A DNA stretch of 36,271 bases from Phycisphaerae bacterium (GTDB taxonomy: Bacteria; Planctomycetota; Phycisphaerae; UBA1845; Fen-1342). The notes under the pieces are model-generated. The model worked only from the letters and a program-made list of their open reading frames with translations, was not told the origin of the DNA and did not search any database. The first letter of the stretch is position 1; every line of letters begins with the position of its first letter. This document shows, piece by piece, positions 17,601-36,221 of the stretch. The position numbers were made by a program, and so were the translations under genes. The stretch covers positions 1-36,271 of the forward strand of contig JANQNU010000045.1 of NCBI GenBank assembly GCA_028279405.1. Direction: 5' to 3'.

Positions 17601-19142
17601 AACATCGCCTGGTGGGAGAACGCGGACGGAAGCGGAACCACCTGGGTCGACAACACTGTGGCCGGAAACTTCAGCGGCGCTTGGAGCGTCGATGTCGCGG
17701 ACATCGATGACGACGGAGACGTCGATCTTGTCGGCGCTGCATTCACTGCGAACCAGATCGCCTGGTGGGAGAACAGTGGCGGGCAGTACAAGCTGACCAC
17801 GACCGCCAGCATTTCCGATGCTTGGGACGAGGGCTTGACCGATGACGCACTGCAAGTGGTGGTGACGCACAACGGTCGGACCAAGGACCACGCCATCGAG
17901 ATCGACAGCCTCTCGGTCCTGCTCGAGTCTGAACCAAACATACCGCTGACCACGCAGCAGGCCGCGACACTGCTGAGCAGCCTCAGCGTCTATCTCGATG
18001 ATGGTTCGGGCGATTTCGACGCCGACCTGGACACGGCGCTCGTGACCGTATCGTTGCTCAACCTGATCGACGGCGTGCAGGCGCTCGATCTACCGGACAG
18101 CGATTCGCGGGCCCAGGTCACGGTCGGCACCGACCGGACGTACTTCGTCGTCGCCACGTTGGTGACGCCGATCAACCAGCAGGGGCGCGACTTGTTCCGG
18201 ATCACGCACCTCGCCGACGCGGCCGTGGCAATCGACGCGACGGAAGAATGCACCTTGCTCCAACAGATCGGCGGGAACGACGTCTCCACTATGCTGATGT
18301 TGATCGACAGTGACCGAGACGGCGTCTGGAACAAGTTCGACATCTGTGCCGGCCATGATGACAACGTTGATACGGACAACGACGACGTGCCCGATGGCTG
18401 TGACACCTGCCTCGAAGCAAGCTCGTCGGGGCTGATCGGTGTCTACTATCCCGAGCTCGACTTCGGCGGGATGCCGATCGTTCGTACGGATCGGGTGGTC
18501 GATTTCAACTGGGGAGCCGATGAACCGTTCGCCGGGTTCGGCAACGACAGCTTTACCGTTCGCTGGAACGGGTACGTCAAGTCGCTCGCGGCCGGGACGT
18601 ACACCTTTACCACGCGTACGGACGACGGCGTGCGGTTGTGGGTGGATGGTCAGCTCCTGATCGACGACTGGACGGCGCACCCGGCACAGGAGGCCTCCGC
18701 GACAATCGACTTCGAGGCGAACACCGCCTATCCGATCGTCATGGAGTACTTCGAAGCCGTGGGTGGCGCTGAGGCCGAGTTGCGCTGGACACCACCTGCC
18801 GGCTCCGACGAGGTGATCCCGACGTCAGCATTGGCGCCGATTCTCGACGCTGACGCTGACGGTGTCGCTGACGCGTGCGATCAGTGTCCCGGCTTCGACG
18901 ACAACGTCGACACGGATGGCGACGGGACGCCCGATGGCTGCGACGCCGCAGATGTGCCGGGCGACCTCGATGCCGACAGCGACGTCGACCTCGATGACTA
19001 CAACCTGTTCCTCGCAGCCTACGGTAGCGCCGTCGGCGACGCGAACTACGACGAGAACGCCGACTTCGATGGCGATGGCTTCATCGGCATGACCGACTTC
19101 GGCATGTGGTATGCGCACTACCTGGCGTTTGCCAACAGCTAG
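14622..19142 (+). CDS. Secreted PATR / FG-GAP propeller / PA14 / dockerin-like multidomain protein
   Basis: 1506 residues from ATG 14622 (GAGG 7 bases upstream). A signal peptide ends near residue 41 (VPAQAH). The first about 620 residues are autotransporter-associated beta-strand repeats (PATR, for example GTGTLTLGGANTYTGGT), a solenoid fold. A thrombospondin type 3 segment (about 636-690) precedes seven FG-GAP repeats of about 50 residues (about 718-1055), each with DxDGDGDxD and a following AWWENT. After an unrecognised beta-rich part (about 1056-1220) come thrombospondin type 3 repeats, a PA14 domain (about 1268-1405, GVYYPELDF...DGVRLWVDGQLLIDDW) and a C-terminal dockerin-like pair of 12-residue EF-hand loops (DLDADSDVDLDD and DFDGDGFIGMTD). 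PA14 domains often bind glycans. The dockerin-like end could dock to the cohesin-like proteins encoded next door. No autotransporter barrel is present. Confidence 0.93.
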   Translation: MNDRRCNTRSAGGGMARRTLTRLGALVLAATAMLSSVPAQAHDYLWDGQFSDRWDHTVPSGLGDLFLSNWQPDLGLPVILLIPDSDDTVQFSSPIARTSVNLNGSRTVQSVSFAGPPYSLFADLSTHSLTLTTGDITTSGTAAHRVSVNMTLNSSGSWAIGDTSELIAHGLVNTSHTLTKSGTGRLTLTGGDDFDQSNMRLLSITGGAVFIDSGYVNLANGFHVRQGALTLRNAAEVDSSDGSSLGRIDSGTLTISGSDTSLTDHSLLVGPFSSNSGEIIVENNATVELVEGTLIGVGGTAIGLEGAGKLTVKSGATVNTGPGELILGGSGGTGTGEALVTGENSRLSIGEDLNIGGQSGTVVGDYGKLEVKASGTVDVGGETILYTSGSSLIVNGATLSTNRLNSQPGVPATISISNQAPSSTHPNGRPALTVGNGNGDSTFNGTIQDVEGGSGTLRKIGTGTLTLGGANTYTGGTRIDGGTLLVNNTSGSGTGAQPVNVNNGATLGGNGIVGHLVTVNNGGTIAPGTSAGVLTVRGAVFESGSTLDIELAGNGSVAGTDFDQLVDIGSVIIRAGATLDLSYLNGFTATAGDSFVIIDAGSVAGEFETVNFPDGQAWFIEYDATAGTVTIGTSPDQDGDGVVDADDNCPLVANPDQADCDGDGKGDACEIADCVGSLLCMDCNGNGIPDGCENDTLPGRSAAFANGVIVDGDANGAFDVAAADMDGDGDLDLVGALSLASQIAWWENTGSGATWTKHTIQTDFSASSSVAVADIDGDGDNDVVGAADFDSTVAWWENTAGDGSAWTRRDLATNFDGASSVHVADVDGDGDPDVFGAAYVDGEVAWWDNTAGNGTTWQKRTIDAGFGTAISVFGADIDGDGDQDVIGASFVDDDVAWWENTAGDGTTWTKRTVDGDFDGASSVFAADINNDAHMDIVAVADRVGEVAWWQNTAGDGTAWTERTVDDSFGSANGVFVADMDADGDLDIAGAASNNIAWWENADGSGTTWVDNTVAGNFSGAWSVDVADIDDDGDVDLVGAAFTANQIAWWENSGGQYKLTTTASISDAWDEGLTDDALQVVVTHNGRTKDHAIEIDSLSVLLESEPNIPLTTQQAATLLSSLSVYLDDGSGDFDADLDTALVTVSLLNLIDGVQALDLPDSDSRAQVTVGTDRTYFVVATLVTPINQQGRDLFRITHLADAAVAIDATEECTLLQQIGGNDVSTMLMLIDSDRDGVWNKFDICAGHDDNVDTDNDDVPDGCDTCLEASSSGLIGVYYPELDFGGMPIVRTDRVVDFNWGADEPFAGFGNDSFTVRWNGYVKSLAAGTYTFTTRTDDGVRLWVDGQLLIDDWTAHPAQEASATIDFEANTAYPIVMEYFEAVGGAEAELRWTPPAGSDEVIPTSALAPILDADADGVADACDQCPGFDDNVDTDGDGTPDGCDAADVPGDLDADSDVDLDDYNLFLAAYGSAVGDANYDENADFDGDGFIGMTDFGMWYAHYLAFANS
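16776..17789 (+). repeat. Seven tandem FG-GAP repeats of about 150 bases
   Basis: Coding repeat within the large dockerin protein. Each unit encodes ADxDGDGDxDxxGA, then AWWENTxGxGxxWT. The regular count of seven and near-equal length suggest one closed propeller that arose by tandem duplication. Confidence 0.8.
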
Positions 19143-19172
19143 CCGTCGGAACTGGCTGTGTTCGAAGACGGT

Positions 19173-19195
19173 GGGTGGGGCACTTGGCCCCACCC
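19173..19195 (+). terminator. Perfect hairpin terminator
   Basis: GGGTGGGGC and GCCCCACCC form a perfect 9-bp stem around ACTTG, 31 bases after the stop of the large dockerin protein. No T-tract. Confidence 0.6.
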
Positions 19196-19343
19196 GCTCG
19201 TCGGCGAGTGCGGGCCTCCGGTCTGCTGGCGTGTGCCGCGGATCCAACCCCTGGATGGCCCGCACTTGTTCTTCCTAACGCGTGAACCGTTTGTTCGCGC
19301 GACTCGACTGTGACGATTGAACGACGCAACTTGGAGGAATGTC

Positions 19344-19904
19344 ATGAAACGCTTCGCTGCACTCTTCGGTATCACGCTTGCCCTCGCCGGCAGTCCGGCC
19401 CGCGCCGGCATCTCGGTCTCGATCGAGCCCAGCAGCTCGATTGTCCAGGTCGGCGATACCTTCACGGTCGACATCCTGGCAGACATTACCAGCATCGACG
19501 CCATCGTCGGCTGGGGTATGGACTTATCGTTTGATTCGCTGATTCTCAGCCACAATCCGCTCACCGGCGTCTTGATCGGACCGAGCTTCAGCGCTGCGCC
19601 GACGCTCGACGGCGACGGTCTGGCCGGTCTGCTGCCGTTCTCGCCGCCGCCAATCACGGGTGTGAGCGGCAACGACGTCCTTTTGGCGACCGTGACCTTC
19701 GAAGCAACGCAAACGGGAACGACCGACCTGCTCGGCGGCTTCACGCTCGGCGATCTGACGGAAGGCTTCGTTCAACTCGGCGGCAGCCCGGTCGACGTCG
19801 CGTTCAACAACGGCCTCGTTCAGGTCATTCCCGCGCCGACCGCGGCCGTGCTCGGACTGATCGGTCTGGCAGCCGTCGTGCTGACGCGCCGCCGCGCAAT
19901 GTGA
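19344..19904 (+). CDS. Cohesin-like protein with PEP-CTERM-like sorting tail (copy 1)
   Basis: 186 residues from ATG 19344, chosen for the GGAGGA 7 bases upstream and the signal peptide that follows (MKRFAALFGITLALAGSPARA). The mature domain (about 22-160) is all-beta with features of the cohesin fold: VGDTFTVDI near its start, GWGMDLSFDS, a DGDGLAGL loop and LLATVTFEA near its end. The tail IPAPTAAVLGLIGLAAVVLTRRRAM is a PEP-CTERM-like signal of the PAP variety: short motif, hydrophobic helix, Arg cluster. Such tails direct processing by exosortase-type enzymes, none of which is encoded here. A close paralogue lies inverted at 21740-22309, and each copy is followed by a 25-codon gene. Dockerin-like modules sit in neighbouring proteins, so a scaffolding role is plausible but unproven. 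Confidence 0.9.
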   Translation: MKRFAALFGITLALAGSPARAGISVSIEPSSSIVQVGDTFTVDILADITSIDAIVGWGMDLSFDSLILSHNPLTGVLIGPSFSAAPTLDGDGLAGLLPFSPPPITGVSGNDVLLATVTFEATQTGTTDLLGGFTLGDLTEGFVQLGGSPVDVAFNNGLVQVIPAPTAAVLGLIGLAAVVLTRRRAM

Positions 19905-21739: not shown

Positions 21740-22309
21740 CTAGGCAGCGCGCCGTTTGACCGTTACCACCGCTACCAATCCAACCAGGCCGAGCACCGCC
21801 GCGGTCGGCGCGGGAATGACCTGAACGAGGGCGCTGCTGATGGCGACGTCGACCTGGCCGCCGCCGAGCTGAACGAAGCCCTCCGTCGGATCGCCGATCG
21901 TGAAGCCGCCGAGCAGTCCCGCAGTTCCCGTTTGCGCCGCCTGGAACGTCAACGTCGCCAAAAGAACGTCGTCGCCGCTCACGCCGGTGACTGGCAGCGG
22001 CGAGAACGGCATCAAGCCGGCCAGGCCGTCGCCGTCGAGCGTGGGCGCCGCGTTGAAGCTCGGGCCGATCAACACATCTGTCAGCGGGTTGTGACTGAGA
22101 ATCAGCGAGTTGAACGAGAGGTCCATACCCCAGCCGACGATGGCGTCGATGCTGGTAATGTCCGCCAGGATGTCGACTGTGAAGGTCTCTCCGACACGGA
22201 CAATCGAGCTGCTGGGTTCGAGCGAAACCGAGATCGCGGCGCGTGCCGGGTATGCGGTCAGCGCCAGGATCGCCAGCGCGATACCGTAGTAGGCAACGTT
22301 ATGTTTCAT
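21740..22309 (-). CDS. Cohesin-like protein with PEP-CTERM-like sorting tail (copy 2)
   Basis: 189 residues from ATG 22309, which has GGAGGA upstream and a signal peptide after it (to about residue 24, YPARA). An open frame 33 codons longer exists but lacks a ribosome binding site or signal. The mature part is closely similar to the protein at 19344: VGETFTVDILADI, GWGMDLSFNS, IGPSFNAAP, DGDGLAGL and GVSGDDVLLATLTF. The tail IPAPTAAVLGLVGLVAVV ends in KRRAA and is a PEP-CTERM-like signal. Differences from copy 1 are scattered, so this is an older duplication than the fibre gene repeats further on. It lies in inverse orientation to copy 1 and is followed by the second micropeptide gene. Cohesin assignment rests on fold-like motifs only. 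Confidence 0.9.
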   Translation of the reverse strand: MKHNVAYYGIALAILALTAYPARAAISVSLEPSSSIVRVGETFTVDILADITSIDAIVGWGMDLSFNSLILSHNPLTDVLIGPSFNAAPTLDGDGLAGLMPFSPLPVTGVSGDDVLLATLTFQAAQTGTAGLLGGFTIGDPTEGFVQLGGGQVDVAISSALVQVIPAPTAAVLGLVGLVAVVTVKRRAA

Positions 22310-22324
22310 GATCGTATTCCTCCG

Positions 22325-22376
22325 AAGCATCATGCTTGAGTTTTCAAAGTCGTCGTCATTGCCGCACACCGGCAAT
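22325..22376 (-). promoter_or_regulatory. Two small palindromes in the leader of cohesin-like copy 2
   Basis: ATTGCCG-CACAC-CGGCAAT (22358-22376) is a perfect 7-bp stem. AAGCAT-C-ATGCTT (22325-22337) abuts the ribosome binding site of the gene starting at 22309. They could be operator or leader structure; copy 1 has no counterpart that I see. Confidence 0.35.
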
Positions 22377-22385
22377 CGGGTGCGG

Positions 22386-22462
22386 AAAAAAGGGGGAGTG
22401 CGGACCAAGTGGGGGGCTTTTGAGCCCGCGGCACGTGCACGCGGACTCGAGTCCGCACTCCC
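22386..22462 (-). terminator. Long-armed terminator with internal 16-bp palindrome
   Basis: On the minus strand GGGAGTGCGGAC (22451-22462) and GTCCGCACTCCC (22394-22405) form a perfect 12-bp stem enclosing 45 bases, followed by T6 (22386-22391). GCGGACTCGAGTCCGC (22441-22456) is a perfect palindrome overlapping one arm, so alternative folds compete. It sits 24 bases after the dockerin gene. Confidence 0.7.
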
Positions 22463-22486
22463 TGAGCCGGAACGATGCGTTGCCCG

Positions 22487-23035
22487 TTAACTGTTGGCGA
22501 ACGCGAGGTAATGTCCGTACCAGATGCCGAAGTCGGTCATCCCGATGAACTCGTCGTTGTCGAAGTCGGCATTGGGGTCGTAGTTCGGCTGGCCGGAGGC
22601 GCTGCCGTACGCGGCCAGGAACAGGTTGTAGTCGTCCAGGTCGACATCGTTGTCGCCGTCGAGGTCGCCGGGCACCGCCGGTGCTTCGCAGGCGTCGCCG
22701 ATGCCGTCGTTGTCACTGTCCATCTGATCAGCGTTCGGCACATCGGGACAGTTGTCGGTGTCGTCGGGGACACCGTCGTTGTCGCGGTCGGCTGGTGGGG
22801 GACCGACGAGTTGCCGTCCGGGCCAGAATCCGCCGCGGAGGGTGAATCCGCCGCTGGTCATGACGCCGGCGTCGGGCTGGCCGATCGTCCCGGTGAGGGT
22901 GAACCCCTGACCGCCGCTGGTGCCGCCGCCACCATCGATCGTGTGCCACGAAAGGTCGTACTGAGCCAGCGCAGCCGGCGCCAGTGCCACCACAACCAAC
23001 ACCGCAGCTGTCCGGATGAATCGACCCAATCCCAT
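22487..23035 (-). CDS. Small secreted protein with thrombospondin type 3 repeats and dockerin-like C-terminus
   Basis: 182 residues from ATG 23035, followed at once by a signal peptide ([20 protein letters not shown]); an AAGGGA lies about 9 bases upstream. The mature N-terminus (about 25-75) carries [28 protein letters not shown] and LRGGFWPG, a short module I associate with planctomycete secreted proteins. A thrombospondin type 3 segment follows (about 83-118, [17 protein letters not shown]). The last about 60 residues are dockerin-like, with loops [12 protein letters not shown] and [12 protein letters not shown], and are nearly identical to the end of the 1506-residue protein, down to a final AFANS. 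The protein is little more than a secreted dockerin carrier. It is adjacent to cohesin-like copy 2, but the two genes are separated by a terminator, so they are not one operon. Confidence 0.88.
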
Positions 23036-23463
23036 TTCAAGCTGTCCCTTCCTGGAACCCGTCCACCAAACGAATGCCCGTTCGCCGCACGTTTCTCTCT
23101 CGGCCGCGCTCTTCCCGGGCCGATCGCGTGGGCGGACTTGGCAATCCGCCGCTGCCCCCCTGAACGAGAATCGGCGTCGGAAGGTGAACGGATTTTTGCC
23201 AGTTTTTTCCCGCGCCAGGGTCCTGTTCGGGTGCCCTCGCCCGCTCGCAACAGCGGCCTGCCGACGCCGCTGTCGCCAGAACGCAAGACGAGAAGCCGAT
23301 TCGGTGCGTCCGATAACCATTATCATCTCCTTGGTACTTCGCCCTTGGCGCCCGGTGCGCCTGGCGTGCGTTTCTACAAAGGGTGGCGCAACCGGGCGTC
23401 GGGCGGCTCACCCTGCTGATCAAAAAAATGCTGACGGCGATCGCTGGCCGTTGGCGTGCCGCG
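23036..23463 (-). other. 428-base leader/intergenic region upstream of the small dockerin gene
   Basis: The dockerin frame stays open upstream to 23326, and ATG 23320 has AAGGAG exactly 6 bases before it, a better ribosome site than that of ATG 23035. The extra 95 residues are Arg-rich without recognisable domains and would bury the signal peptide. A long leader is therefore more likely than a protein extension. The terminator of the next gene lies at 23422-23451. Confidence 0.4.
23422..23451 (-). terminator. Rho-independent terminator of S74 paralogue 2
   Basis: On the minus strand ACGGC, eight bases, GCCGT (23451-23434), then CAGCA and T7 (23428-23422), 12 bases after the stop codon at 23464. 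Confidence 0.7.
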
Positions 23464-26313
23464 CTAGCGTGTTCCCGTCTGCTGGACGAGCGCTTCCAAT
23501 CTCTCCAGTCGCTGCCCGAGCGTTTCGTTCACGGTTTTCAGCGCCGCGACCTCGGCGTTCTTCTCTTCCTGAAGCAATTGCAGTTGTTCGATGCGCCGGT
23601 GCAGCGCCTGGGTGGCGGAGACATTCAGCATCGAGATCGCTTCGTAGTCGACGTTGTGGAAGTCGTCGACTTCGCGGCCGTAGACAAAGATGCGGCCTTC
23701 GAGCGACTTCGCTATTCGGAAGCGGTCGGCGCGGACTTCCAGGACTTCGTGGACGCTGGCGCCGTCATCGGTGATCAGTCGCACGCGGTCGCCGACTTCC
23801 AGATCGGTTGCCAGCGCGATCCAGCCGTCTTCGACGGAGGCCGGCTGGTAGATGTCCGGTACGACGTCGGCCGAGAGCGTGACGGCTTGGGGAAAGACGT
23901 CGCGCAGCTGCTGCCCGATGACCTTCTTGTAGGGTTGGTCACCGTTGGTGACCTTGTCGAGCATGGTGTAGTCGGTGACCTCGATGGCCATCAGGGTGTT
24001 GAGGTCGGCGTTGTTGTCGGACAGGCCGACGATGCTCTTGATCCGCGCGTCCGAGTGGGCGTTGAAGGAGCTAGCTGCGATGCGGTGCGACGCGTAGAGC
24101 GAGTAGTTCGCAGGGCTCGATCCCGCACTAATTCCGACGATTCCACTGCGACCGAGGAACGCGTGCAATCCCAGCGCTCTGGAAACGAATCCTTCGATGT
24201 CGACCTTTCCGCGCGTCGGATTGTTCGTACCGATGCCGACGCTTCCGGTGAAGTCAGCGTTGCCTGCGACGGAAAGCGGATTCGTCGGTGCAACCGTTCC
24301 GAGGCCGACGTCGCCGGACGGATCGATCGTGATCGCCGTTTTGTTGTTCGTCTGGTTTTTGAAGACCAATTTGCCCCGACCTTCATCCGCGGAGCCGCCG
24401 GTCGAGAAGATCAGGTATTCCCTGCCGCCGTCTATCGCCCGGGCGTCCAAGCTGAAGAACGCGCCGTGTGGTGCCGTGTCGTCGACCTCGACGCGCAGGT
24501 GCGCGACCGGGGTTTGATTGCCGCCGAGCACGTGCAGCGGTGCGGTCGGGGTGTCCGTGCCAAAGCCGACGAAGCCATTGCTGTAGTGGATGTTGGGGGC
24601 GTTCGTCTCCCATACACCACCCACGGGCAGGTTGGTCAGGCCCGAACCGTCGCCGACGAACGCGCCCGCGGTGACCGTGCCACCGAGTGCCACGTAGGTT
24701 CGGAAGGTAGCGTCGTTTGGGTGGAGATTCGACTGGCCGTCTGGGTAAGGATTGGCGCGTCCATTTCCTATATAGATCGTGTCGTTCGCGGCGACTTCAA
24801 AAGTGTACTGCTGGCCGGCCTGCACAAACGGCATCGCCACGACCGGCAGGTCGACCCACGCCGTCACGCCGGTAGGTAGACTTACTTCGCCTTGCGAGAC
24901 CACTGTTCCCTCAGTGCCGACGCCTTCGTAAACGGTCAGCGTCGCCGAAGTCGCGGTGCCGGTTGCATCTAGCCGAATACTCACCGTTTTGAGCGGTCCG
25001 CTCAGACCGGCTGTGAAGGATTGCCAGAGCCCGAAGACGATTGCGTGGGCATCGAGGGATTCCGACGATTGATCCAACTGGGGCGTCCCGAGCACGAACA
25101 CCGACCCGTTGGCGTGGATGTCGCCGATCACGTCGAGCGCCGCGCCCGGTGTATCCGTACCGACACCGACATTGCCGGCGGTGTAGTAGACGTCGTTCCC
25201 GGATTCGGTCCAGACGCCCGCCATCACCGGCAGGTTGGTGAGCCCCGATCCGTCGCCGACGAACGCGCCCGCGGTGACTGTGCCGTCGACGTCGAGTTCG
25301 GTGCTCGGCGTATTGGTGCCGATGCCGACGCCGCCGGTGGCACGAATCAGGAACTGGTCCTCGGCGGTCGAGGCGAAGTCGGCGGCCGTGTGGTCGGCCC
25401 ATACCCACGCGCCGTGATGATTGGCTTTTGCGCGCCGGCCTGCAGCGAAGCTGTGGTCTCCGGCCGCCACGTTGCTCGCTCCGCCGGGCACGGTCGAGTT
25501 CGTGCCGCTGGCGGTATTGCCCAAACTGCCACTGGAAAAACCGCCGCCGCCCGCCACGACGGAGTTGATGCCGCTGGCCACATTGTCAAAGCCGCCGCCG
25601 ACAGTTGATCGGACGGCGATCGCCTTGTTTCTTTGGCCACCCGCGACTGTTGCGCAGAAATCCCCGGCTTCGTTGGAGTCCCCGCCGCCGATCGTGGCGA
25701 CGAGCGCACCATTGCCCTGACTACCGAAACCCGTGATCCTGTTTGCAGTACCGCCGCCGATTGTGCCCCAGCTACCTGGGTCGTCGATGACGTTGCCTTC
25801 GCCGCCGCCGATCGTGCCGAACGTCTGGCGCACAACATTGCCGCTCCCGCCACTGACCGTAGCGTTACTGCCAATGGCGTCGTTGATTGTCGGGTGAATC
25901 ACGACGGATCCACTTTCGCCAACAACCATGCCGCGCGTTTGCAGCGCGTAAGGCGTTGCGGTTAGTGGCTGGCGGGGGCTGAGCGCCGTAAACGCGCCGC
26001 CGCCGGCCGATTCACGGAGCGCGATCTCAAGCCAGCGGGCGTCGCCGTTGAAGGCCATGACGCCGAAGTCGAGCTCGACAGTGATGAGGCCATCGACGAC
26101 CGCGACCGCGTCGACCGCGAGCATGGAGCCGATCATGTTGCCGCCCGCGTCGGCGTCCCAGAGCGTGAACTCGAAATCGTAGGTGTCGTTGACGGGGGCT
26201 CCAGAGAAATCGAGCCGACCCTGGTAGGTGAAGCCGCCTCCCACGGGTGTCTGGGCGGTCGCCATAGCGGCGAGTACAAGGGTGAGCGCGAATGTGAGCA
26301 GATTCTGACGCAT
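23464..26313 (-). CDS. Secreted S74 fibre-like protein, paralogue 2
   Basis: 949 residues from ATG 26313. GGAG lies 6 bases upstream and a signal peptide follows (MRQNLLTFALTLVLAAMATAQ); an upstream in-frame ATG four codons earlier overlaps that ribosome site. The N-terminal beta domain FTYQGRLDFSGAPVND is nearly identical to that of paralogue 4. YadA-head-like repeats (about 145-300, GGGEGNVIDD, VAGGQRNKAIAV), the tail-fibre motif VGIGTNTPSTELDVDG, one jelly-roll-like module (about 410-545, QSFTAG...QAGQQYTF), and a second fibre motif lead to the S74 domain. Ser754 and Lys759 lie in HSDARIKSIVG, and VIGQQLRDVFPQAV follows. About 130 residues more include a beta insertion (VGDRVRLITDDG) and a terminal coiled coil. 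Self-cleavage and trimerisation are inferred from the domain. Confidence 0.92.
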   Translation of the reverse strand: MRQNLLTFALTLVLAAMATAQTPVGGGFTYQGRLDFSGAPVNDTYDFEFTLWDADAGGNMIGSMLAVDAVAVVDGLITVELDFGVMAFNGDARWLEIALRESAGGGAFTALSPRQPLTATPYALQTRGMVVGESGSVVIHPTINDAIGSNATVSGGSGNVVRQTFGTIGGGEGNVIDDPGSWGTIGGGTANRITGFGSQGNGALVATIGGGDSNEAGDFCATVAGGQRNKAIAVRSTVGGGFDNVASGINSVVAGGGGFSSGSLGNTASGTNSTVPGGASNVAAGDHSFAAGRRAKANHHGAWVWADHTAADFASTAEDQFLIRATGGVGIGTNTPSTELDVDGTVTAGAFVGDGSGLTNLPVMAGVWTESGNDVYYTAGNVGVGTDTPGAALDVIGDIHANGSVFVLGTPQLDQSSESLDAHAIVFGLWQSFTAGLSGPLKTVSIRLDATGTATSATLTVYEGVGTEGTVVSQGEVSLPTGVTAWVDLPVVAMPFVQAGQQYTFEVAANDTIYIGNGRANPYPDGQSNLHPNDATFRTYVALGGTVTAGAFVGDGSGLTNLPVGGVWETNAPNIHYSNGFVGFGTDTPTAPLHVLGGNQTPVAHLRVEVDDTAPHGAFFSLDARAIDGGREYLIFSTGGSADEGRGKLVFKNQTNNKTAITIDPSGDVGLGTVAPTNPLSVAGNADFTGSVGIGTNNPTRGKVDIEGFVSRALGLHAFLGRSGIVGISAGSSPANYSLYASHRIAASSFNAHSDARIKSIVGLSDNNADLNTLMAIEVTDYTMLDKVTNGDQPYKKVIGQQLRDVFPQAVTLSADVVPDIYQPASVEDGWIALATDLEVGDRVRLITDDGASVHEVLEVRADRFRIAKSLEGRIFVYGREVDDFHNVDYEAISMLNVSATQALHRRIEQLQLLQEEKNAEVAALKTVNETLGQRLERLEALVQQTGTR
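23615..24120. repeat. C-terminal S74 block, about 500 bases, repeated at 26659-27163
   Basis: Near-identical at base level, for example GCGTAGAGCGAGTAGTTCGC in both. The conserved block begins before the coiled coil and ends just past the catalytic Ser. The two terminal coiled coils themselves differ. Confidence 0.85.
24622..25250. repeat. Internal fibre module, about 630 bases, repeated at 28200-28828
   Basis: Both copies encode GDGSGLTNLP, the QSFTAG/QAGQQYTF module and the GNVGVGTDTP motif at high base identity. A more diverged third copy lies at about 27601-28200, giving a tandem pair in paralogue 3. Confidence 0.85.
25943..26313. repeat. N-terminal fibre block, about 370 bases, repeated at 31171-31542
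   Basis: The signal peptide and N-terminal beta domain of paralogues 2 and 4 match nearly base for base. Paralogue 3, which lies between them, keeps only the signal peptide and has a different domain after it. Confidence 0.85.
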
Positions 26314-26374
26314 TTGCTTCTCCATTGCCGTTTGCAAGTGGGTTGGACGCTCGGGGGCGTTTCTCGTGTGCCCC

Positions 26375-26430
26375 TCAATCGGTAAACGCAACCGTCACGC
26401 GAGTTCCTTGGCTGTCGGGAGTTATTTTTT
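26375..26430 (-). promoter_or_regulatory. Conserved upstream element of S74 paralogue 2
   Basis: On the minus strand: AAAAAATAAC, then CCAAGGA, CGCG, TGCGTTTAC and TTGA at set distances, about 60-115 bases before the start codon. The same order occurs at 29320-29375 and, more diverged, at 31606-31658. Probable promoter or leader signal. Confidence 0.5.
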
Positions 26431-26493
26431 GTATGTTGTGTTGCGGTTGTTGGTGTCGGCACCGCGCGCGGTCGAACGACGCCAAGAGATGGG

Positions 26494-26515
26494 GGGCCGC
26501 ACTCGCGTACGGCCC
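26494..26515 (-). terminator. Hairpin after S74 paralogue 3
   Basis: GGGCCG, ten bases, CGGCCC, 22 bases downstream of the stop codon at 26538. The same hairpin follows paralogue 4. No T-tract. Confidence 0.5.
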
Positions 26516-26537
26516 GCGCTGCTGTGGTCCTGTCTGA

Positions 26538-29258
26538 CTAGCGCTGCGCTGACGCTTCGAGCAGCGCCTCGAGTCGCTCGAGACGGTTCTTCAGCTCGGC
26601 GATCTCGGTGTTCTTCTCGCTCTCGAGCGTCTTCATCTGTTGGTAGAGCGCTTGCGTCGCCGAGACATTGAGCATCGCGATGGCCTCGTAATCGACGTTG
26701 TGAAAGTCGTCGACTTCGCGGCCGTAGACGAAGATGCGACCTTCGAGCGACTTCGCTACGCGGAAGCGGTCGGCGCGGACTTCCAGGACTTCGTGGACGC
26801 TGGCGCCGTCATCGGTGATCAGTCGCACGCGGTCGCCGACATCCAGATCGGTTGTCAGCGCGATCCAGCCGTCTTCGACGGAGGCCGGCTGGTAGATGTC
26901 GGGTACGACGTCGGGCGAAAGGGTGACGGCTTGCGGAAAGACGTCGCGCAGCTGCTGCCCGATGACCTTCTTGTAGGGCTGGTCACCGTTGGTGACCTTG
27001 TCGAGCATCGTGTAGTCGGTGACTTCGATGGCCAGCAGGGTGCTCAGGTCGGCGTTGTTGTCGGACAGGCCGACGATACTCTTGATCCGCGCGTCCGAGT
27101 GGGCGTTGAAGGAGCTGGCTGCGATGCGGTGCGACGCGTAGAGCGAGTAGTTCGCAGGGTCCGCTCCCGCATTAAGGCCAGTGAGTCCATTGCCGTTCAA
27201 GTACCCGTGCAGGCCCAGTGCCCTGGAAACGAATCCTTCGATGTCGACCATTCCGCGCGTCGGGAAGCGCGTGCCGATACCGACGGGGCCAGAAGGATCA
27301 AGTGTCATCAAGACGCGGTTGTTCGTCTGGTTTTTGAAGACCAGTTTGCCCTGTCCCTCGGCCGCGGAGGCGCCGGACGAAAAGATCAGGTATTCCTTGC
27401 CGCCGTCCGTCGCCTCGGCGTCGAGGCTGAGGATCGATCCGAACGGTGCCGTACCATCGACCTCGACGCGCAAGTGAGAGAGCGGGGTTTGATTGCCGCC
27501 GAGCACGTGCAGCGGCGCGGTCGGCGTGTCCGTCCCGATGCCGACGTTGCCGTCGTTGTAGAACATGTCGTTCCCGGATTCGTTCCAGACGCCCGCCGTC
27601 ACCGGCAGATTGGTCAGGCCCGAACCGTCGCCGACGAACGCGTTCGCGGTGACTGTTCCGCCGGGCCGCACGTAGGTTCGGAAGGTAGCGTCCGCCTCAT
27701 AAGGAAGATTCGCCAGGCCGCCTGCGTAAGGATCGCCGGTTCCAACTCCTATGTCGAGCGATCCGAACAGGAGGAGTCGAAAAGTGTACTGTTGGCCGGC
27801 CTGCAAAGACGGCATCGCCGCAACCGGCATGTCGACCCACCCCGGCCCGCCGAGATTTACGTTGCCGTGCGAGATTATTGTTCCCACAGTGCCGACGCCC
27901 TCATAAATGACCAGAATGCCCGAGGTCGCAGAGCCCATGCCGCTATCCCAAATACTCACCGTTGTGAGCGCCCCGTCCACGCCGGCCGTGAAGGCCTGCC
28001 AGAACCCGAAGCTGGGAAGGGTTGAATCGTTGATTTCCGACGATTGGTCCAACTCGGTCGTCCCGAGTACGGACAACGATCCGTTGGTGCGGATGTCGCC
28101 GATCACGTCGAGCGGCACGGCCGGCGTATCCGTACCGATACCAACATTGCCGGCCGTGTAGTAGACGTCGTTCCCGGCTTCGTTCCAGACGCCCGCCATC
28201 ACTGGCAGGTTGGTCAGCCCCGATCCGTCGCCGATGAACGCGCCCGCAGTGACCGTGCCACCCGGCCGCACGTAGGTTCGGAAGGCAACGTCATTCGTGC
28301 CGAGATTCGACTGGCCGCCTGGGTAAGGATCGGCGCGTCCAATTCCGATGTAGGCCGTATCGTTCGCGGCGACTTCAAACGTGTACTGCTGGCCGGCCTG
28401 CACAGACGGCATCGCCACCACCGGCAGGTCGACCCACGCCGTCACGCCGGTAGGTAGACTTACTTCGCCTTGCGAGACCACTGTTCCCCCAGTGCCGACG
28501 CCCTCGTAAACGGTCAGCGTCGCTGAGGTCGCGGTGCCGAGTTCGTTTAACCGAATACTCACCGTTGTGAGCGGCCCGCTCAGACCGGCTGTGAAGGACT
28601 GCCAGATCCCGTAGTTGATTGCGTATGCGCTGACGGATTCCGACGATTGGTCCAACTGGGTCGTCCCGAGTACGAACACCCCCCCGTTGGCGTGGATGTC
28701 GCCGATCACGTCGAGCGCTGCGGCCGGTGTATCCGTACCGACACCCACATTGCCGGCGGTGTAGTAGACGTCGTTCCCGGATTCGGCCCAGGCGCCCGCC
28801 ATCGCCGGCAGGTTGGTCAGCCCGGAACCGTCGCCGACGAAGGCGTTCGCGGTGACCGTGCCTTGTTGGTCAACGTCGATCCCGCGCGTCTGGAGCGCGT
28901 AGGGGGTGGCGGTGACCGGCTGGCGCGGGGTCAAGGTGACGAACGCGCTGCCCGGCGGGCTTTGAACCGAAACCTCCAGCCAGCGCGCCTCGCCGTTGAA
29001 GACGTCCGGGCCAAAGTTGAGTTCGGTGGTGAAGAGCCCGTCCACCACGTCGCCGCCGGCGAGCACGGTCCGTCCGATCTGCGTGCCGCCGGTTTCCGCA
29101 TCCCACAGCGAAAACTCGAAGTCGGCGACGTCGTTCACCGGGATGCCGCTTGAATCGAGCCGGAACTGGTACGTGAAGGAGTTGCCCAATGGCGTCTGGG
29201 CCGTCGCCATAGCGGCGAGCACAAAGGTGAGCGCGAATGTGAGCAGATTCTGACGCAT
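26538..29258 (-). CDS. Secreted S74 fibre-like protein, paralogue 3, with tandem internal modules
   Basis: 906 residues from ATG 29258, with GGAG at good distance and the signal peptide MRQNLLTFALTFVLAAMATAQ. The N-terminal domain (FTYQFRLDSSGIPVND) is diverged from its neighbours although the signal peptide and upstream DNA match. There are no YadA-like repeats. Instead, two jelly-roll-like modules of about 135 residues (about 200-335 and 395-530) alternate with the tail-fibre motifs GDGSGLTNLP and VGIGTDTP. The S74 domain has Ser721 and Lys726 in HSDARIKSIVG, then VIGQQLRDVFPQAV, the VGDRVRLITDDG insertion and a coiled coil ending RLERLEALLEASAQR. That last sequence equals the end of paralogue 4, not of paralogue 2. 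Probable trimeric secreted fibre; target unknown. Confidence 0.92.
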   Translation of the reverse strand: MRQNLLTFALTFVLAAMATAQTPLGNSFTYQFRLDSSGIPVNDVADFEFSLWDAETGGTQIGRTVLAGGDVVDGLFTTELNFGPDVFNGEARWLEVSVQSPPGSAFVTLTPRQPVTATPYALQTRGIDVDQQGTVTANAFVGDGSGLTNLPAMAGAWAESGNDVYYTAGNVGVGTDTPAAALDVIGDIHANGGVFVLGTTQLDQSSESVSAYAINYGIWQSFTAGLSGPLTTVSIRLNELGTATSATLTVYEGVGTGGTVVSQGEVSLPTGVTAWVDLPVVAMPSVQAGQQYTFEVAANDTAYIGIGRADPYPGGQSNLGTNDVAFRTYVRPGGTVTAGAFIGDGSGLTNLPVMAGVWNEAGNDVYYTAGNVGIGTDTPAVPLDVIGDIRTNGSLSVLGTTELDQSSEINDSTLPSFGFWQAFTAGVDGALTTVSIWDSGMGSATSGILVIYEGVGTVGTIISHGNVNLGGPGWVDMPVAAMPSLQAGQQYTFRLLLFGSLDIGVGTGDPYAGGLANLPYEADATFRTYVRPGGTVTANAFVGDGSGLTNLPVTAGVWNESGNDMFYNDGNVGIGTDTPTAPLHVLGGNQTPLSHLRVEVDGTAPFGSILSLDAEATDGGKEYLIFSSGASAAEGQGKLVFKNQTNNRVLMTLDPSGPVGIGTRFPTRGMVDIEGFVSRALGLHGYLNGNGLTGLNAGADPANYSLYASHRIAASSFNAHSDARIKSIVGLSDNNADLSTLLAIEVTDYTMLDKVTNGDQPYKKVIGQQLRDVFPQAVTLSPDVVPDIYQPASVEDGWIALTTDLDVGDRVRLITDDGASVHEVLEVRADRFRVAKSLEGRIFVYGREVDDFHNVDYEAIAMLNVSATQALYQQMKTLESEKNTEIAELKNRLERLEALLEASAQR

Positions 29259-29319
29259 TTGCTTCTCCATTTGCCGTTTGCTAGTGGGTTGGTCGCTCGG
29301 GGGCGTTCTCGCGTACCCC

Positions 29320-29375
29320 TCAACCGGTAAACGCAGCCGTTGCGCGAGTTCCTTGGCTGTCGGGAATTATTTTTT
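29320..29375 (-). promoter_or_regulatory. Conserved upstream element of S74 paralogue 3
   Basis: Second copy of the element at 26375-26430: AAAAAATAATT, CCAAGGA, TGCGTTTAC and TTGA in the same order on the minus strand. Confidence 0.5.
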
Positions 29376-29437
29376 GTATGTCGTGATGCGGTTGTTGGTG
29401 TCGGCACCGCGCGCGGTCGAACGACGCCAAGAGATGG

Positions 29438-29459
29438 GGGCCGCACTCGCGTACGGCCC
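29438..29459 (-). terminator. Hairpin after S74 paralogue 4
   Basis: GGGCCG, ten bases, CGGCCC on the minus strand, 22 bases after the stop at 29482; identical in arms and position to the hairpin at 26494-26515. Confidence 0.5.
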
Positions 29460-29481
29460 GCGCTTCGGTGTCTCAATCCGG

Positions 29482-31542
29482 TTAGCGCTGCGCCGACGCT
29501 TCGAGCAGCGCCTCGAGTCGTTCGAGGCGGTTCTTCAACACGGCGATCTCGGCGTCTTTCTCTGCGCGCAATTCCTGAATCGCCGCGGCGGAATAGATGG
29601 TGAGCGGGTACGTATCGACCTGGAGAATCTCTGAGCCGTCAGGTAGGCGCTCGCCGCTGCCTTTGACATGGTCCGGGAAGACCTGCGCGAACTCCTGGGC
29701 GATGACGTTCAGATAGCGGCCGTCGCTGACGCCGGCGTGCTTGGCCTTGTAGTCGTCGGTGTACGCGAAGCTGACCAGTCGGACGCGATCGAGTGTGTCG
29801 AGCGCGTTGTCGATCGTCTGGATATCGGTCTTGATGCGCCGATCGGAGTTGGCCAGCCAGTCGCCGGCGGTTGATTTGGACGCATCGCCGCCGACCTCTA
29901 AAGCGTTCGCGACAGCGGTACGATTGATGCCCACCGATCCGGCCGCGTAGACGAAGGTGCGGAACGTCAGATCCCTGAAGGGGCTACTTGATGCTCGGCC
30001 ACCCGAGTAGGGGTTTCCGTTCGCTTGCCCGACCCATACGGATCCAGGGCCATCCACTGTAAAGGTGTATTGCTCGCCGGCCTGGAGCAGTGGTGTGTTC
30101 GCTATCGGAAGATCGACCCATTGCGTCGCGCCGACCGGCACACTCAAGATCTCCTGCGAAAGGACTGGGCCTCCCGGTCCTGCGCCGGCCTGGACGGTGA
30201 GCTCGACGGATGGCGTCTGGTTAGTAGCGTGCACGAGGATGCTGATCGTATGCAGGGCACCGGTTGTTCCAGCCGTGAACGATTGCCAGCCACCGTTTGA
30301 GGTTAGGTTGATGACTTCGTTGGATTGATCAAGCTGGTTCGGGCCGTAATGCACGAAGTTCTCCGTCTGTATCGCGCTCGGCAAGCTCGTGAGACCCGAG
30401 CCGTCACCGATGAATGCGCTAGCGGTGATCGTGCCGGCAACTTCGAGTTCGCTGCTTGGTGTATTGGTGCCGATGCCGACGCCGCCGGTCGCGTCGATCA
30501 GGAACTGGTCCGCGGCTGTGGAGGCGAACACCTCGTCGCTGCTTGACCAGACGAACGCCCCGTCGTGCTGTGCTTCGGCCTCACGTCCCGCGGCGAAGCT
30601 GTGCGCTCCGTCGGCGGCGTTGCTTCTCCCGCCCGGGATCGTGGCATACTCGCCGGTGGCCCTGTTGAAGAAACCACCACCGACCGCGGCGAAGTTGTTT
30701 TCGGCCACGTTGAAGCGCCCGCCCGTCACGGCCGAAGCATCGCCATCTGCCAGGTTGCCAATGCCGCCGGCAATCACTGCGGCGCCGATGCCGCCGATCG
30801 TACTTCTCACGGTGTTCGAGCTGCCGCCGCCGATGGTCTGCTGTGACCCGCCGCCCTCGATCGTGTTGCCGAGACCGCCGCTGATCGTCGCGTCGTTGTT
30901 ATTTTCGCCGACCCGATTCGGTAAGCTTTCGGTGCCGCCGAAAACAGTCGCGTTGATACTCCCGCTCGCCACCTCATTGGCGGAAGAGCCGCCGATGAGG
31001 TTGCCCGCCACCTGACCGCCCACGAATTGCGTCGGTTCGAGTCGCAGCGCCCGCTCGCCGTTCACGCGCAGCTCGAGCGGCTGCTGATCGGTGGTGCCCA
31101 AGAAATTCGTGTTCGGGTCCGTGCCGGCGTTGCCGCCGAGCGCCCAGGCGTTGGTGGCGTTGAGTGCCTGGAGCGCGTAAGGCGCCGCGGTCAGCGGCTG
31201 GCGGGGGCTGAGCGCCGTAAACGCGCCGCCGCCGGCCGATTCACGGAGCGCGATCTCGAGCCAGCGGGCGTCGCCGTTGAAGGCCATGACGCCGAAGTCG
31301 AGTTCGACCGTAATGAGGCCATCGACGACCGCGACCGCGTCGACCGCGAGCACGGAGCCGATCATGTTGCCGTTAGTGTCGGCGTCCCAGAGCATGAACT
31401 CGAAATCGTAGGTGTCGTTGACGGGTTCTCCAGAGAAATCGAGCCGGCCCTGATAGGAGAAGCCGCTCCCCACGAGTGTCTGAGCGGCCGCGGTCGCGGC
31501 GAGTGTCAGGGTCAGTACGAATGTAAGCAGATTTTGGCGCAT
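29482..31542 (-). CDS. Secreted S74 fibre-like protein, paralogue 4
   Basis: 686 residues from ATG 31542 (AAGGGAG upstream, signal peptide MRQNLLTFVLTLTLAATAAAQ). The N-terminal domain is nearly identical to paralogue 2. A YadA-head-like array (about 190-330, GGGSSNTVRS, GGGFFNRATGE) leads to VGIGTNTPSSELEVAG and one jelly-roll-like module (about 405-530, QSFTAGTTG...LQAGEQYTF). The catalytic end resembles the gene at 11630 rather than its neighbours: [16 protein letters not shown] with Ser566 and Lys571, then [15 protein letters not shown] and [11 protein letters not shown]. The coiled coil at the extreme C-terminus again matches paralogue 3. It is the shortest of the four and a clear mosaic. 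It is the first gene of the minus-strand fibre cluster, though each gene seems to have its own leader and hairpin. Confidence 0.92.
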   Translation of the reverse strand: MRQNLLTFVLTLTLAATAAAQTLVGSGFSYQGRLDFSGEPVNDTYDFEFMLWDADTNGNMIGSVLAVDAVAVVDGLITVELDFGVMAFNGDARWLEIALRESAGGGAFTALSPRQPLTAAPYALQALNATNAWALGGNAGTDPNTNFLGTTDQQPLELRVNGERALRLEPTQFVGGQVAGNLIGGSSANEVASGSINATVFGGTESLPNRVGENNNDATISGGLGNTIEGGGSQQTIGGGSSNTVRSTIGGIGAAVIAGGIGNLADGDASAVTGGRFNVAENNFAAVGGGFFNRATGEYATIPGGRSNAADGAHSFAAGREAEAQHDGAFVWSSSDEVFASTAADQFLIDATGGVGIGTNTPSSELEVAGTITASAFIGDGSGLTSLPSAIQTENFVHYGPNQLDQSNEVINLTSNGGWQSFTAGTTGALHTISILVHATNQTPSVELTVQAGAGPGGPVLSQEILSVPVGATQWVDLPIANTPLLQAGEQYTFTVDGPGSVWVGQANGNPYSGGRASSSPFRDLTFRTFVYAAGSVGINRTAVANALEVGGDASKSTAGDWLANSDRRIKTDIQTIDNALDTLDRVRLVSFAYTDDYKAKHAGVSDGRYLNVIAQEFAQVFPDHVKGSGERLPDGSEILQVDTYPLTIYSAAAIQELRAEKDAEIAVLKNRLERLEALLEASAQR

Positions 31543-33699: not shown

Positions 33700-33770
33700 T
33701 GATGCAAAACATGCATGAATCATATCATAAAGATGCATTGGATGTATCTCAAAGCACATCCTATCCTCCT
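33700..33770. promoter_or_regulatory. AT-rich divergent regulator/catalase control region
   Basis: A strikingly AT-rich stretch for this window. It has two ATGCAT palindromes (33711-33716 and 33733-33738) and a possible sigma-70-like promoter for the catalase, TTGGAT (33738-33743), 18 bases, TATCCT (33762-33767). LysR binding somewhere here is expected but no exact OxyR site is claimed. Confidence 0.4.
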
Positions 33771-33848
33771 GCATCGACGCTCAGAGTGCTGAAACGCGAG
33801 GTGGTCCCCGCGCGGCTAGCGGGATCGAAACTTGAGGGAGGTGCCATG

Positions 33849-36221
33849 ATGCACACGAGAACGTTTGGGCGAATGCTCGTCGCTGCTCTTTTTGCTGCGC
33901 TGCCGTCTTTCGCGATGGACGCGCCGCCGCTTACGGAAGACGGCGGCCAGCCGGTCGGCGACAATCAGAACTCGCGCACGGCCGGCCCGCGCGGCAGCGT
34001 GTTGCTGGACAACTTTCACCTGATACAGAAATTGGCGCGATTCGATCGCGAGCGCATTCCCGAGCGGGTGGTGCACGCCCGCGGGGTTGGCGCGCACGGC
34101 GAGTTTGTCAGCTACGGCGACTGGTCGGCCCACACCAAGGCGGATCTGTTCAGCGCCGAAGGGAAGCGAACGCCGATCTTCCTGCGGTTCTCCACGGTCA
34201 TTCATCCCAAGGGCTCACCGGAGCAATTGCGCGACCCGCGCGGCTTCGCGGTCAAGTTCTACACCAACGAGGGCAACTGGGACCTGGTGGGCAACAACCT
34301 TCCGGTGTTCTTCATTCGGGACGCCATCAAGTTTCCGGACATGGTCCATTCTCTGAAGCCCTCGCCGATTACGAACCAGCAAGATCCCAACCGGTTCTTC
34401 GATTTCTTCAGCCATGTGCCGGAAAGCACGCACATGCTGACCTTCCTCTATTCGAATCAGGGGACGCCCGGCAACTTGCGGCAGATGGACGGGTTCGGTG
34501 TCCATGCCTACAAGTGGGTCAACGCCGCCGGTGAGGTGACTTACGTCAAGTTCAACTGGCGCAGCCTTCAGGGGCATGCGCCGCTGTCGGCAATGACCGC
34601 CGCCAAGTCAGCCGCCGCCAACCACACCGGGTACACCGCCGATCTGTACGAGTCGATCGCGCGTGGCGAATTCCCGGCCTGGGAACTGGCCGTACAGATG
34701 CTCAAGACGGAGCAGCTCGACGACTTCGACTACGACCCGCTCGACGCCACCAAGACCTGGAACGACGTGCCGGAGATGAAGATCGGTCGCATGACGCTGA
34801 ACCGGATCCCCGACAATTTCTTCCAGGAGACCGAGCAGGTGGCGTTCTCACCCGGCATGGTCGTGCCCGGGATCGAGCCCTCCGAGGACCGACTGCTGCA
34901 GGGTCGTCTGTTCTCCTACGCTGACACGCAGCGATACCGACTGGGCGGCAACTACCTCGCGCTTCCGGTCAATCGGCCGGTCGCGACCGTGACCAGTTAC
35001 AATCAGGACGGCCAACTGAATCACGGGACGACCACGTCGGACGTCAACTACCAGCCGAGCGTTGTGGACAAGGCGCCGACCGAGCGGACTACCGAGCGGT
35101 ACAGCCAGGCACCGCTGGTCGGACAGGTTCAGCAGCAGCGCATCGAAAAGACGTTGGACTATCAGCAGGCAGGGGTGTTGTACCGTGGATTCACGGCCGA
35201 CGAGCGTGCTCACCTGGTGCAGAACTTTGCAGGCGACCTCGGCAGAGTAGCCAATCGACAGGTCAAGTTGCGGATCCTCAGCTTTCTCTTCCAGGCGGAT
35301 GAAGACTACGGCCGCAGCGTTGCTGAGGCAGTCGGCGAACGCGTCGATGACGTGAAGCGGATGATCGCCGCCAACCGTGAGGTCGAATCGACGCGCTGGC
35401 AGACCATCGCGTTGGCCGAGTCCGGCTCGAGCGATACTGTCATTGTTCGTAACACGTCGGCGCGCCCGATCCGCTACCGGACGCGCACCGCCGCTTCGTC
35501 CTGGAGCAATCCCTATACGCTACTGCCGAACGCCACTCATACGTACGACTCCGCGTCCATCGAGATTCGGCGGATCGATATCGAGCGGTCGATCGTGCTG
35601 GCCGGCATCGGCGATGCGATCGATCTGGGAGCTTTGCCGCGACGAGGATCGGCTGCGCCGTCAGCAGTCGGTATCGCGCGGGCGCCGCAAACCGCGCCGG
35701 CGGACACCCTGGAAAGTGCGTTCGCCGCGGCCCGAAGCAACGATCTCGGCCTCATTGCTGGCTTTCTGGCGGCAGGTTATTCGCCGAATACGCCGAACGG
35801 TCGGCGAGACACGCTGCTCTCGGTTGCAGCCTACCACGGAAGCCTTGATGTCGTTGCGCGATTGATTGCCGAGCCCGAGATCGAACTCGAAGGCCGGAAT
35901 CGGCTCGGACTGACCGCACTGGCCGCAGCTGCGTTCAAGGGCCATGACGAGGTGCTGGAGGCGCTGCTCGATGCAGGTGCCGATCCGAACGCCACGAACG
36001 GGGCAGGCCAGACGGCCCTGATGTTCGCTGCACTGGCCGGCCGGACGCGCTCGGTGGAGATCCTGCGCAACGCTGGCGCCAGCGCCTCGCTTGCGGATGC
36101 GGCCGGCAACACCGCTATGACCCTGGCACGCGGGCAGAACGCAACCGGCGCCGTCGGTGTTCTTCGCGGGGCCCCGTCTGGCGTCCAATCCGACGCGCCG
36201 TTGCCGCGCGAACTCGAATAG
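33849..36221 (+). CDS. Exported haem catalase fused to C-terminal ankyrin repeats
   Basis: 790 residues from ATG 33849 (GGGAGG 7 bases upstream; ATG 33846 directly before it is the alternative). A signal peptide (MLVAALFAALPSFAM) indicates export. The catalase core (about 30-490) has the catalytic His76 in RVVHARG, Asn149 in LVGNNLP and the haem ligand Tyr357 in RLFSYADT. A catalase-related helical domain follows (about 485-545). The usual THRHRLG after the Tyr motif reads TQRYRLG. Next come an unfamiliar beta domain (about 550-635) and at least three ankyrin repeats (about 665-780, GLTALAAAAFKGHDEVLEALLDAGADPN in sections). Catalase normally ends near 480-500 residues. Ankyrin proteins encoded beside catalase genes in Pseudomonas (AnkB) and Campylobacter support catalase activity, and here both are one chain. 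Likely induced through the divergent OxyR-like regulator. Confidence 0.94.
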   Translation: MHTRTFGRMLVAALFAALPSFAMDAPPLTEDGGQPVGDNQNSRTAGPRGSVLLDNFHLIQKLARFDRERIPERVVHARGVGAHGEFVSYGDWSAHTKADLFSAEGKRTPIFLRFSTVIHPKGSPEQLRDPRGFAVKFYTNEGNWDLVGNNLPVFFIRDAIKFPDMVHSLKPSPITNQQDPNRFFDFFSHVPESTHMLTFLYSNQGTPGNLRQMDGFGVHAYKWVNAAGEVTYVKFNWRSLQGHAPLSAMTAAKSAAANHTGYTADLYESIARGEFPAWELAVQMLKTEQLDDFDYDPLDATKTWNDVPEMKIGRMTLNRIPDNFFQETEQVAFSPGMVVPGIEPSEDRLLQGRLFSYADTQRYRLGGNYLALPVNRPVATVTSYNQDGQLNHGTTTSDVNYQPSVVDKAPTERTTERYSQAPLVGQVQQQRIEKTLDYQQAGVLYRGFTADERAHLVQNFAGDLGRVANRQVKLRILSFLFQADEDYGRSVAEAVGERVDDVKRMIAANREVESTRWQTIALAESGSSDTVIVRNTSARPIRYRTRTAASSWSNPYTLLPNATHTYDSASIEIRRIDIERSIVLAGIGDAIDLGALPRRGSAAPSAVGIARAPQTAPADTLESAFAAARSNDLGLIAGFLAAGYSPNTPNGRRDTLLSVAAYHGSLDVVARLIAEPEIELEGRNRLGLTALAAAAFKGHDEVLEALLDAGADPNATNGAGQTALMFAALAGRTRSVEILRNAGASASLADAAGNTAMTLARGQNATGAVGVLRGAPSGVQSDAPLPRELE

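Follow-up and report, generated by a model that had tools for sequence, protein, structure and literature searches.

Do the fibre genes of this locus owe their patchwork resemblance to recombination among paralogues, by which events did it arise, and what would such fibres be? A preliminary description of the DNA had proposed several block exchanges among four genes, resembling the diversification of phage tail fibres or surface antigens. The window, i.e. the whole stretch of 36,271 nucleotides that was analysed, is contig C55 of the 5.63-Mb genome of a Phycisphaerae-type planctomycete, a draft assembly of 92 contigs. We denote the genes par1 (11630-14437, plus strand), par2 (23464-26391, minus), par3 (26538-29270, minus) and par4 (29482-31542, minus). 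Scans for Rfam families and tRNAs gave no matches in the window.

The four products are built from a limited set of modules. Par1 has a leader, an N-domain (11711-12004), a HEAD, an RCC1 propeller, an S74 autochaperone (14021-14206) and a coiled coil. In par2, whose likely start codon is the ATG at 26325, the leader and N-domain (25942-26241) are followed by a HEAD with UspA1-like repeats (25315-25878), a CBM-like beta-sandwich (24691-25080), a stalk, an ICA2 chaperone-like domain (23602-24066) and a coiled coil. Par3 lacks the HEAD and comprises a leader, an N-domain (28893-29186), two tandem CBM-like domains (27669-28661; copies at 28269-28661 and 27669-28058), a stalk, an ICA2 domain (26646-27110) that is 95% identical to that of par2 at the amino acid level, and a short coiled coil of par4 type. 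Par4 combines a leader, an N-domain (31171-31470), a HEAD, a CBM-like domain, a Peptidase_S74 domain (29662-29847) and a coiled coil. Par3 had been thought to carry another N-terminal domain; it is indeed divergent, but it is the same domain, with 60-62% amino acid identity to those of par2 and par4.

The mosaic of paralogue blocks is real. The N-domains of par2 and par4 are 93% identical at the nucleotide level with a dS of 0.18, as against dS values of 1.10 for the HEAD and 2.62 for the CBM-like domain of the same pair. Par2 and par3 have their low values elsewhere, in the leader (0.26), first CBM-like domain (0.19), stalk (0.35) and chaperone (0.23), as opposed to 1.32 in the N-domain and 1.39 in the coiled coil; their signal peptides are 93% identical in nucleotides and their N-domains 65%. 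As for par3 and par4, they are close at the coiled-coil end (86% nucleotide identity, dS 0.36) and distant in the N-domain (dS 1.27) and CBM-like domain (dS 2.2). The three pairwise resemblances originally reported, namely the N-terminal block of par2 and par4, the final coiled coil of par3 and par4, and the signal peptide and leader of par2 and par3, are thus all borne out. Unequal constraint on the proteins cannot explain these contrasts, because the synonymous sites themselves differ.

Informative sites along the genes switch partner, from 81:3 to 10:92, a change matched in 0 of 2000 permutations. No single tree fits the blocks, as recombination among paralogues had been taken to imply. For the N-domain quartet the AU test favours par2 with par4 (alternative trees, p<=0.006) and for the chaperone quartet par2 with par3 (alternative trees, p<=3e-5), and each block rejects the tree of the other. 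Family-wide trees of the N-domain and S74 (11 members) are also mutually rejecting; since they have low supports and one extreme S74 branch, we base the argument on the quartet and dS tests. The N-domain tract has its upstream edge between 26257 and 26259, at about codon 23 of par2 counted from 26325, which is likely to be about the signal-peptidase site as judged from the sequence, and its downstream edge near 25940, where the domain ends. The proposal that block edges are domain edges therefore holds for the N-domain tract; the coiled-coil edge, in contrast, falls inside the coiled coil.

Such a patchwork might in principle have been created by the assembler joining unrelated copies, and the genome is a 92-contig draft in which several contig ends lie inside the family. 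However, blocks joined by such an error would be the same as their source, and these differ by 7-14%; moreover, no reading frame is broken, and the longest stretches of exact identity (62-80 bp) sit inside the blocks, away from their edges. We regard an assembly chimera as extremely improbable. With a dS of about 0.2, the recombination among paralogues is old.

How many events are needed is a separate issue. The homology between par3 and par4 starts inside the coiled coil (26618 and 29562, respectively) and runs past the stop codon into the intergenic region, with 89% identity over 231 bp at that junction. Up to the coiled-coil point par2 resembles par3, and beyond it the two diverge; par2 and par4 have no match across the coiled-coil/intergenic junction. 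Compared in steps of 60 bases, par2 and par3 show 88-100% identity across their intergenic region and leader. The par3/par4 coiled coil, the intergenic region and the par2/par3 leader form one continuous homologous unit, so that fewer events are required than had been described: the common coiled coil and the common leader are the two sides of a single tandem unit. On the minus strand, the copy with par3 (26619-29562, 2.94 kb) comprises the end of the par4 coiled coil, the intergenic region, the leader and the par3 body up to the coiled coil, and the copy with par2 (23531-26618) the end of the par3 coiled coil, the intergenic region, the leader and the par2 body.

The sequences of this 2.94-kb tandem unit are most readily accounted for by a single unequal crossover within the coiled coils. 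In the order of events that we infer for the window, a crossover between the coiled coil of par4 and that of an ancestral neighbour would have duplicated the unit, yielding par3 with a par4-type tail end and par2 with the ancestral tail end; promoter region and leader would have been common to both. A conversion tract limited to the N-domain would then have made par2, or its ancestor, and par4 alike, and par3 would have become distinct in that it lacks a HEAD and has two copies of the CBM-like domain. Two candidate upstream elements were dropped: a shared GTTTAC...TTGA element is clear only in three genes of the window, and the weak signal that a small EM motif search gave for 48 upstream regions may reflect leader or ribosome-binding-site composition.

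The fourth reported resemblance, between the catalytic blocks of par4 and par1, proved to be of another kind. Both genes match Peptidase_S74 (PF13884) over the cut-off with a Ser-Lys dyad, and the block is 86% identical in amino acids. Nevertheless, its dS (1.05) is like those of the N-domain (0.98) and HEAD (0.99) of the same pair, and the S74 block of par4 is nearer to copies in contigs C89 (dS 0.42), C59 (0.54) and C50 (0.58). This indicates a module type common to the whole family rather than a specific exchange. Par2 and par3 do not match PF13884, and we call their chaperone end ICA2. The motif is SDRRIK in the S74 domains and SDARIK in the ICA2 domains, both with the Ser-Lys spacing found in self-cleaving chaperones. 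By sequence and fold, S74 matches the ICA of MyRF (7DC3; E 1.4e-6, Z 10.0), a eukaryotic membrane-bound transcription factor unrelated elsewhere.

The window genes belong to a family of 54 genes (97 kb, 1.7% of the genome; four run off contig ends), as counted by search matches to the window proteins and an N-domain HMM. S74 is present in 15 of 50 members according to Pfam, and HEAD, CBM-like and RCC1 modules combine freely with C-terminal ends of S74, ICA2 or other type. Where two members are neighbours within 3 kb, they have the same orientation (16 of 16 pairs). Upstream homology extends to the start codon only among members of the same array or of end-joining contigs, with one short exception, and the distal gene parts mostly differ between array members. 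The usual rule is thus that promoter, leader and anchor are kept and the tip is changed; in par2 and par3, the exception, it is the N-domain that differs and the tip that is retained.

Some members have features of their own. The three with an NVPSA-type C-terminus, L032 (C13:321799), L038 (C39:6272) and L046 (C50:907), each adjoin a same-strand gene of approximately 600 codons for a protein with a beta-roll head and S74 but no N-domain, in a recurring two-gene cassette. L059 (C92:59396), a lipoprotein-like gene of 420 aa, joins GPQG repeats of collagen type to a cap motif of MAT type and an S74 chaperone. In L028 and L048 (C2 and C57) the N-domain follows a region resembling, by eye, a proprotein-convertase P-domain, so that it need not come first.

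Among 150 genomes sampled from the class, 24 have the N-domain at E<=1e-8, with 1-12 copies where present, in a scan that scored up to 33 candidates per genome; 3-12 copies are present in five named planctomycete genomes for which every candidate was scored. None of the N-domain genes examined in relatives has the module order of the window genes, so the arrangement is not one common to all relatives. A scan of the named genomes with par4 alone found no relative; the N-domain alignment did retrieve them. The domain also occurs (loci L061-L139) in Planctomycetota, Chloroflexota, Verrucomicrobia, Acidobacteria and others, and matched no Pfam family of its own.

What are these proteins? Bdellovibrio bacteriovorus is known to have mosaic adhesive trimers (MAT), i.e. 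chimeric fibres with swapped tips, and the authors of that work suggested that other bacteria may have them (PMC10769870). The best match of our N-domain to Bdello_MAT_N (NF053851) scores 34 bits (E 2.4e-8), and 7 of 50 members match at E<=0.01; the curated cut-off of 60 bits is reached by no member, nor in any of 199 planctomycete genomes. The six top planctomycete MAT_N hits are all matched by the family's own N-domain HMM as well, and through this chain of HMM matches the N-domain is a distant homologue of MAT_N. Its position right after a signal-peptide-like leader and its beta-rich sandwich model are as described for MAT. The V-G-x-[GN] cap motif of the stalk occurs 70 times in 39 of the 54 members and twice in a three-fold larger background, and par2 aligns with the crystallised MAT tip Bd3182 (8OJN) at this motif (E 0.007). 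The C-termini, too, are S74 with SDxxxK or a swapped tip, and both systems have many paralogues per genome, variable tips and evolutionary tip swapping. As the MAT_N cut-off is not reached, we call the family MAT-like and do not file it as MAT. It differs from that of Bdellovibrio by its planctomycete host, an N-domain of approximately 100 aa, its size (54 versus 21 members), extra HEAD, RCC1 and YVTN-type propeller modules, other C-terminal ends, and tandem arrays with visible crossovers; MAT fibres serve prey recognition in Bdellovibrio.

The HEAD matches the head of UspA1 (3PR7, E 6e-12), which recalls the trimeric autotransporter adhesins UspA1 and YadA. Unlike in these proteins, the C-terminus is an autochaperone or another end, and no YadA-type membrane anchor appears among the Pfam matches of 50 members. 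The genes also resemble phage tail fibres and tailspikes, with an endosialidase-type S74, modular mosaicism, a conserved N-terminus and exchanged tips, and there are PHROGs tail-fibre matches and, among 50 members, two weak matches to contractile injection systems. The genes might accordingly be tail fibres of a prophage or of such an injection system. However, they have signal-peptide-like leaders, a search of viral contigs did not find the N-domain, and matches to phage records are limited to residues 495-671, the S74 end. The family is scattered over the whole genome, with cellular neighbours (kinase-TPR, sortilin/BNR, hydrolase, LysR and catalase genes) and no virion or injection-system genes seen in the annotation of genes adjoining the members. 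Of the two parallels originally drawn, surface fibres fit, and a phage or injection-system origin is, in our judgement, very improbable.

We consider it rather probable that this is a 54-member family of exported, probably trimeric, MAT-like surface fibres made mosaic by recombination in tandem arrays. Trimer formation and surface display are predictions, the material being monomer models and leader sequences; by analogy with MAT (PMC10769870), the N-domain would be located at the cell surface. Following the signal peptide, the N-domain would anchor or position the fibre, the head and stalk repeats would project it, and lectin-like or propeller domains would bind; the C-terminal intramolecular chaperone with its Ser-Lys dyad would aid trimerisation and then cut itself off. 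The mosaic would arise by homologous recombination inside the arrays. The N-domain model is a confident beta-sandwich; its fold matches are common Ig/FnIII-like sandwiches (Z up to 7.4), which we did not use for function, and its profile matched no PDB sequence. A generic 'STALK' HMM drifted to low specificity and was left out of the conclusions. N-domain and chaperones are under purifying selection (dN/dS 0.08-0.6; N-domain 0.1-0.6).

The CBM-like domain is also a beta-sandwich, whose best fold matches are, among others, modules of the CBM6/32/35 kind and domains of phage baseplates or fibres; these are middling (Z 7-10), and sugar binding is putative. Between the tandem copies of par3, dN is 0.34 and dS 0.21 (dN/dS 1.6, bootstrap P 0.037, for this one pair), a hint that the binding part is under diversifying selection. 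This sign, together with the lectin-like and propeller domains in exchangeable positions, argues against a structural matrix, such as a sheath, holdfast or biofilm scaffold, in which the variety of domains would not be used for recognition. The very high copy number, the ice-binding-like and collagen-like members and the lack of a known ligand are what one would expect of such a matrix, and we give it a modest chance.

Recombination among the fibre genes might also be ongoing and programmed, a pool of cassettes being recombined into expressed genes so that rearranged subpopulations exist now. Tandem arrays and 80-bp exact repeats inside blocks are compatible with such a process, as are four pairs of contig ends (C92/C13, C89/C50, C2/C57 and C36/C58) that meet in or beside family genes with exact overlaps of 54-99 bp. 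The members at these ends are L028, L030, L036, L045, L046, L048, L049, L057 and L060. The overlaps may reflect strain variation or assembler breaks, and a surplus of contig ends in family genes, considered as a sign of strain variation, was ambiguous. Against ongoing switching, the blocks are about 7-14% diverged (dS about 0.2), and the neighbouring proteins tested include no recombinase. Among assembled members, no two longer blocks exceed 93% nucleotide identity, and no near-identical donor cassettes were seen in the assembly, where fresh copies could hide in collapsed repeats or unassembled variants. Programmed switching thus seems unlikely to us. It is tempting to go further and speculate that tip exchange in arrays with a constant promoter, leader and anchor, possibly still rearranging, provides a recognition repertoire more than twice that of Bdellovibrio, and that the organism may prey on or attach to many microbes; this we put forward as a long shot.

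Other parts of the window deserve mention. An inverted repeat of 75% identity links 18932-19879 to 21765-22697. Its first copy is the dockerin-like 3' end of the gene at 14622-19142 plus the next gene, whose product has, by eye, a cohesin-like domain and a C-terminal membrane anchor; the inverted copy sits behind the ORF at 22487-23326 (minus strand), which also ends dockerin-like. The repeat looks like a duplicated surface cohesin-dockerin pair, although Pfam found no domain in either of the two small proteins. Finally, 33702-36221 encodes a catalase fused to C-terminal ankyrin repeats.

In the literature we found no paper on S74 or tail-fibre-domain proteins of planctomycetes; as far as our searches show, a planctomycete family of such size, the added module types and the readable footprints of recombination are apparently new. 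Our results suggest that large families of MAT-like chimeric fibres exist well beyond Bdellovibrio. They also provide a readable record of how new combinations would be made, by unequal crossover within coiled coils and by short conversion tracts at domain edges. With that record and many natural chimeras in one genome, tip swapping becomes testable.
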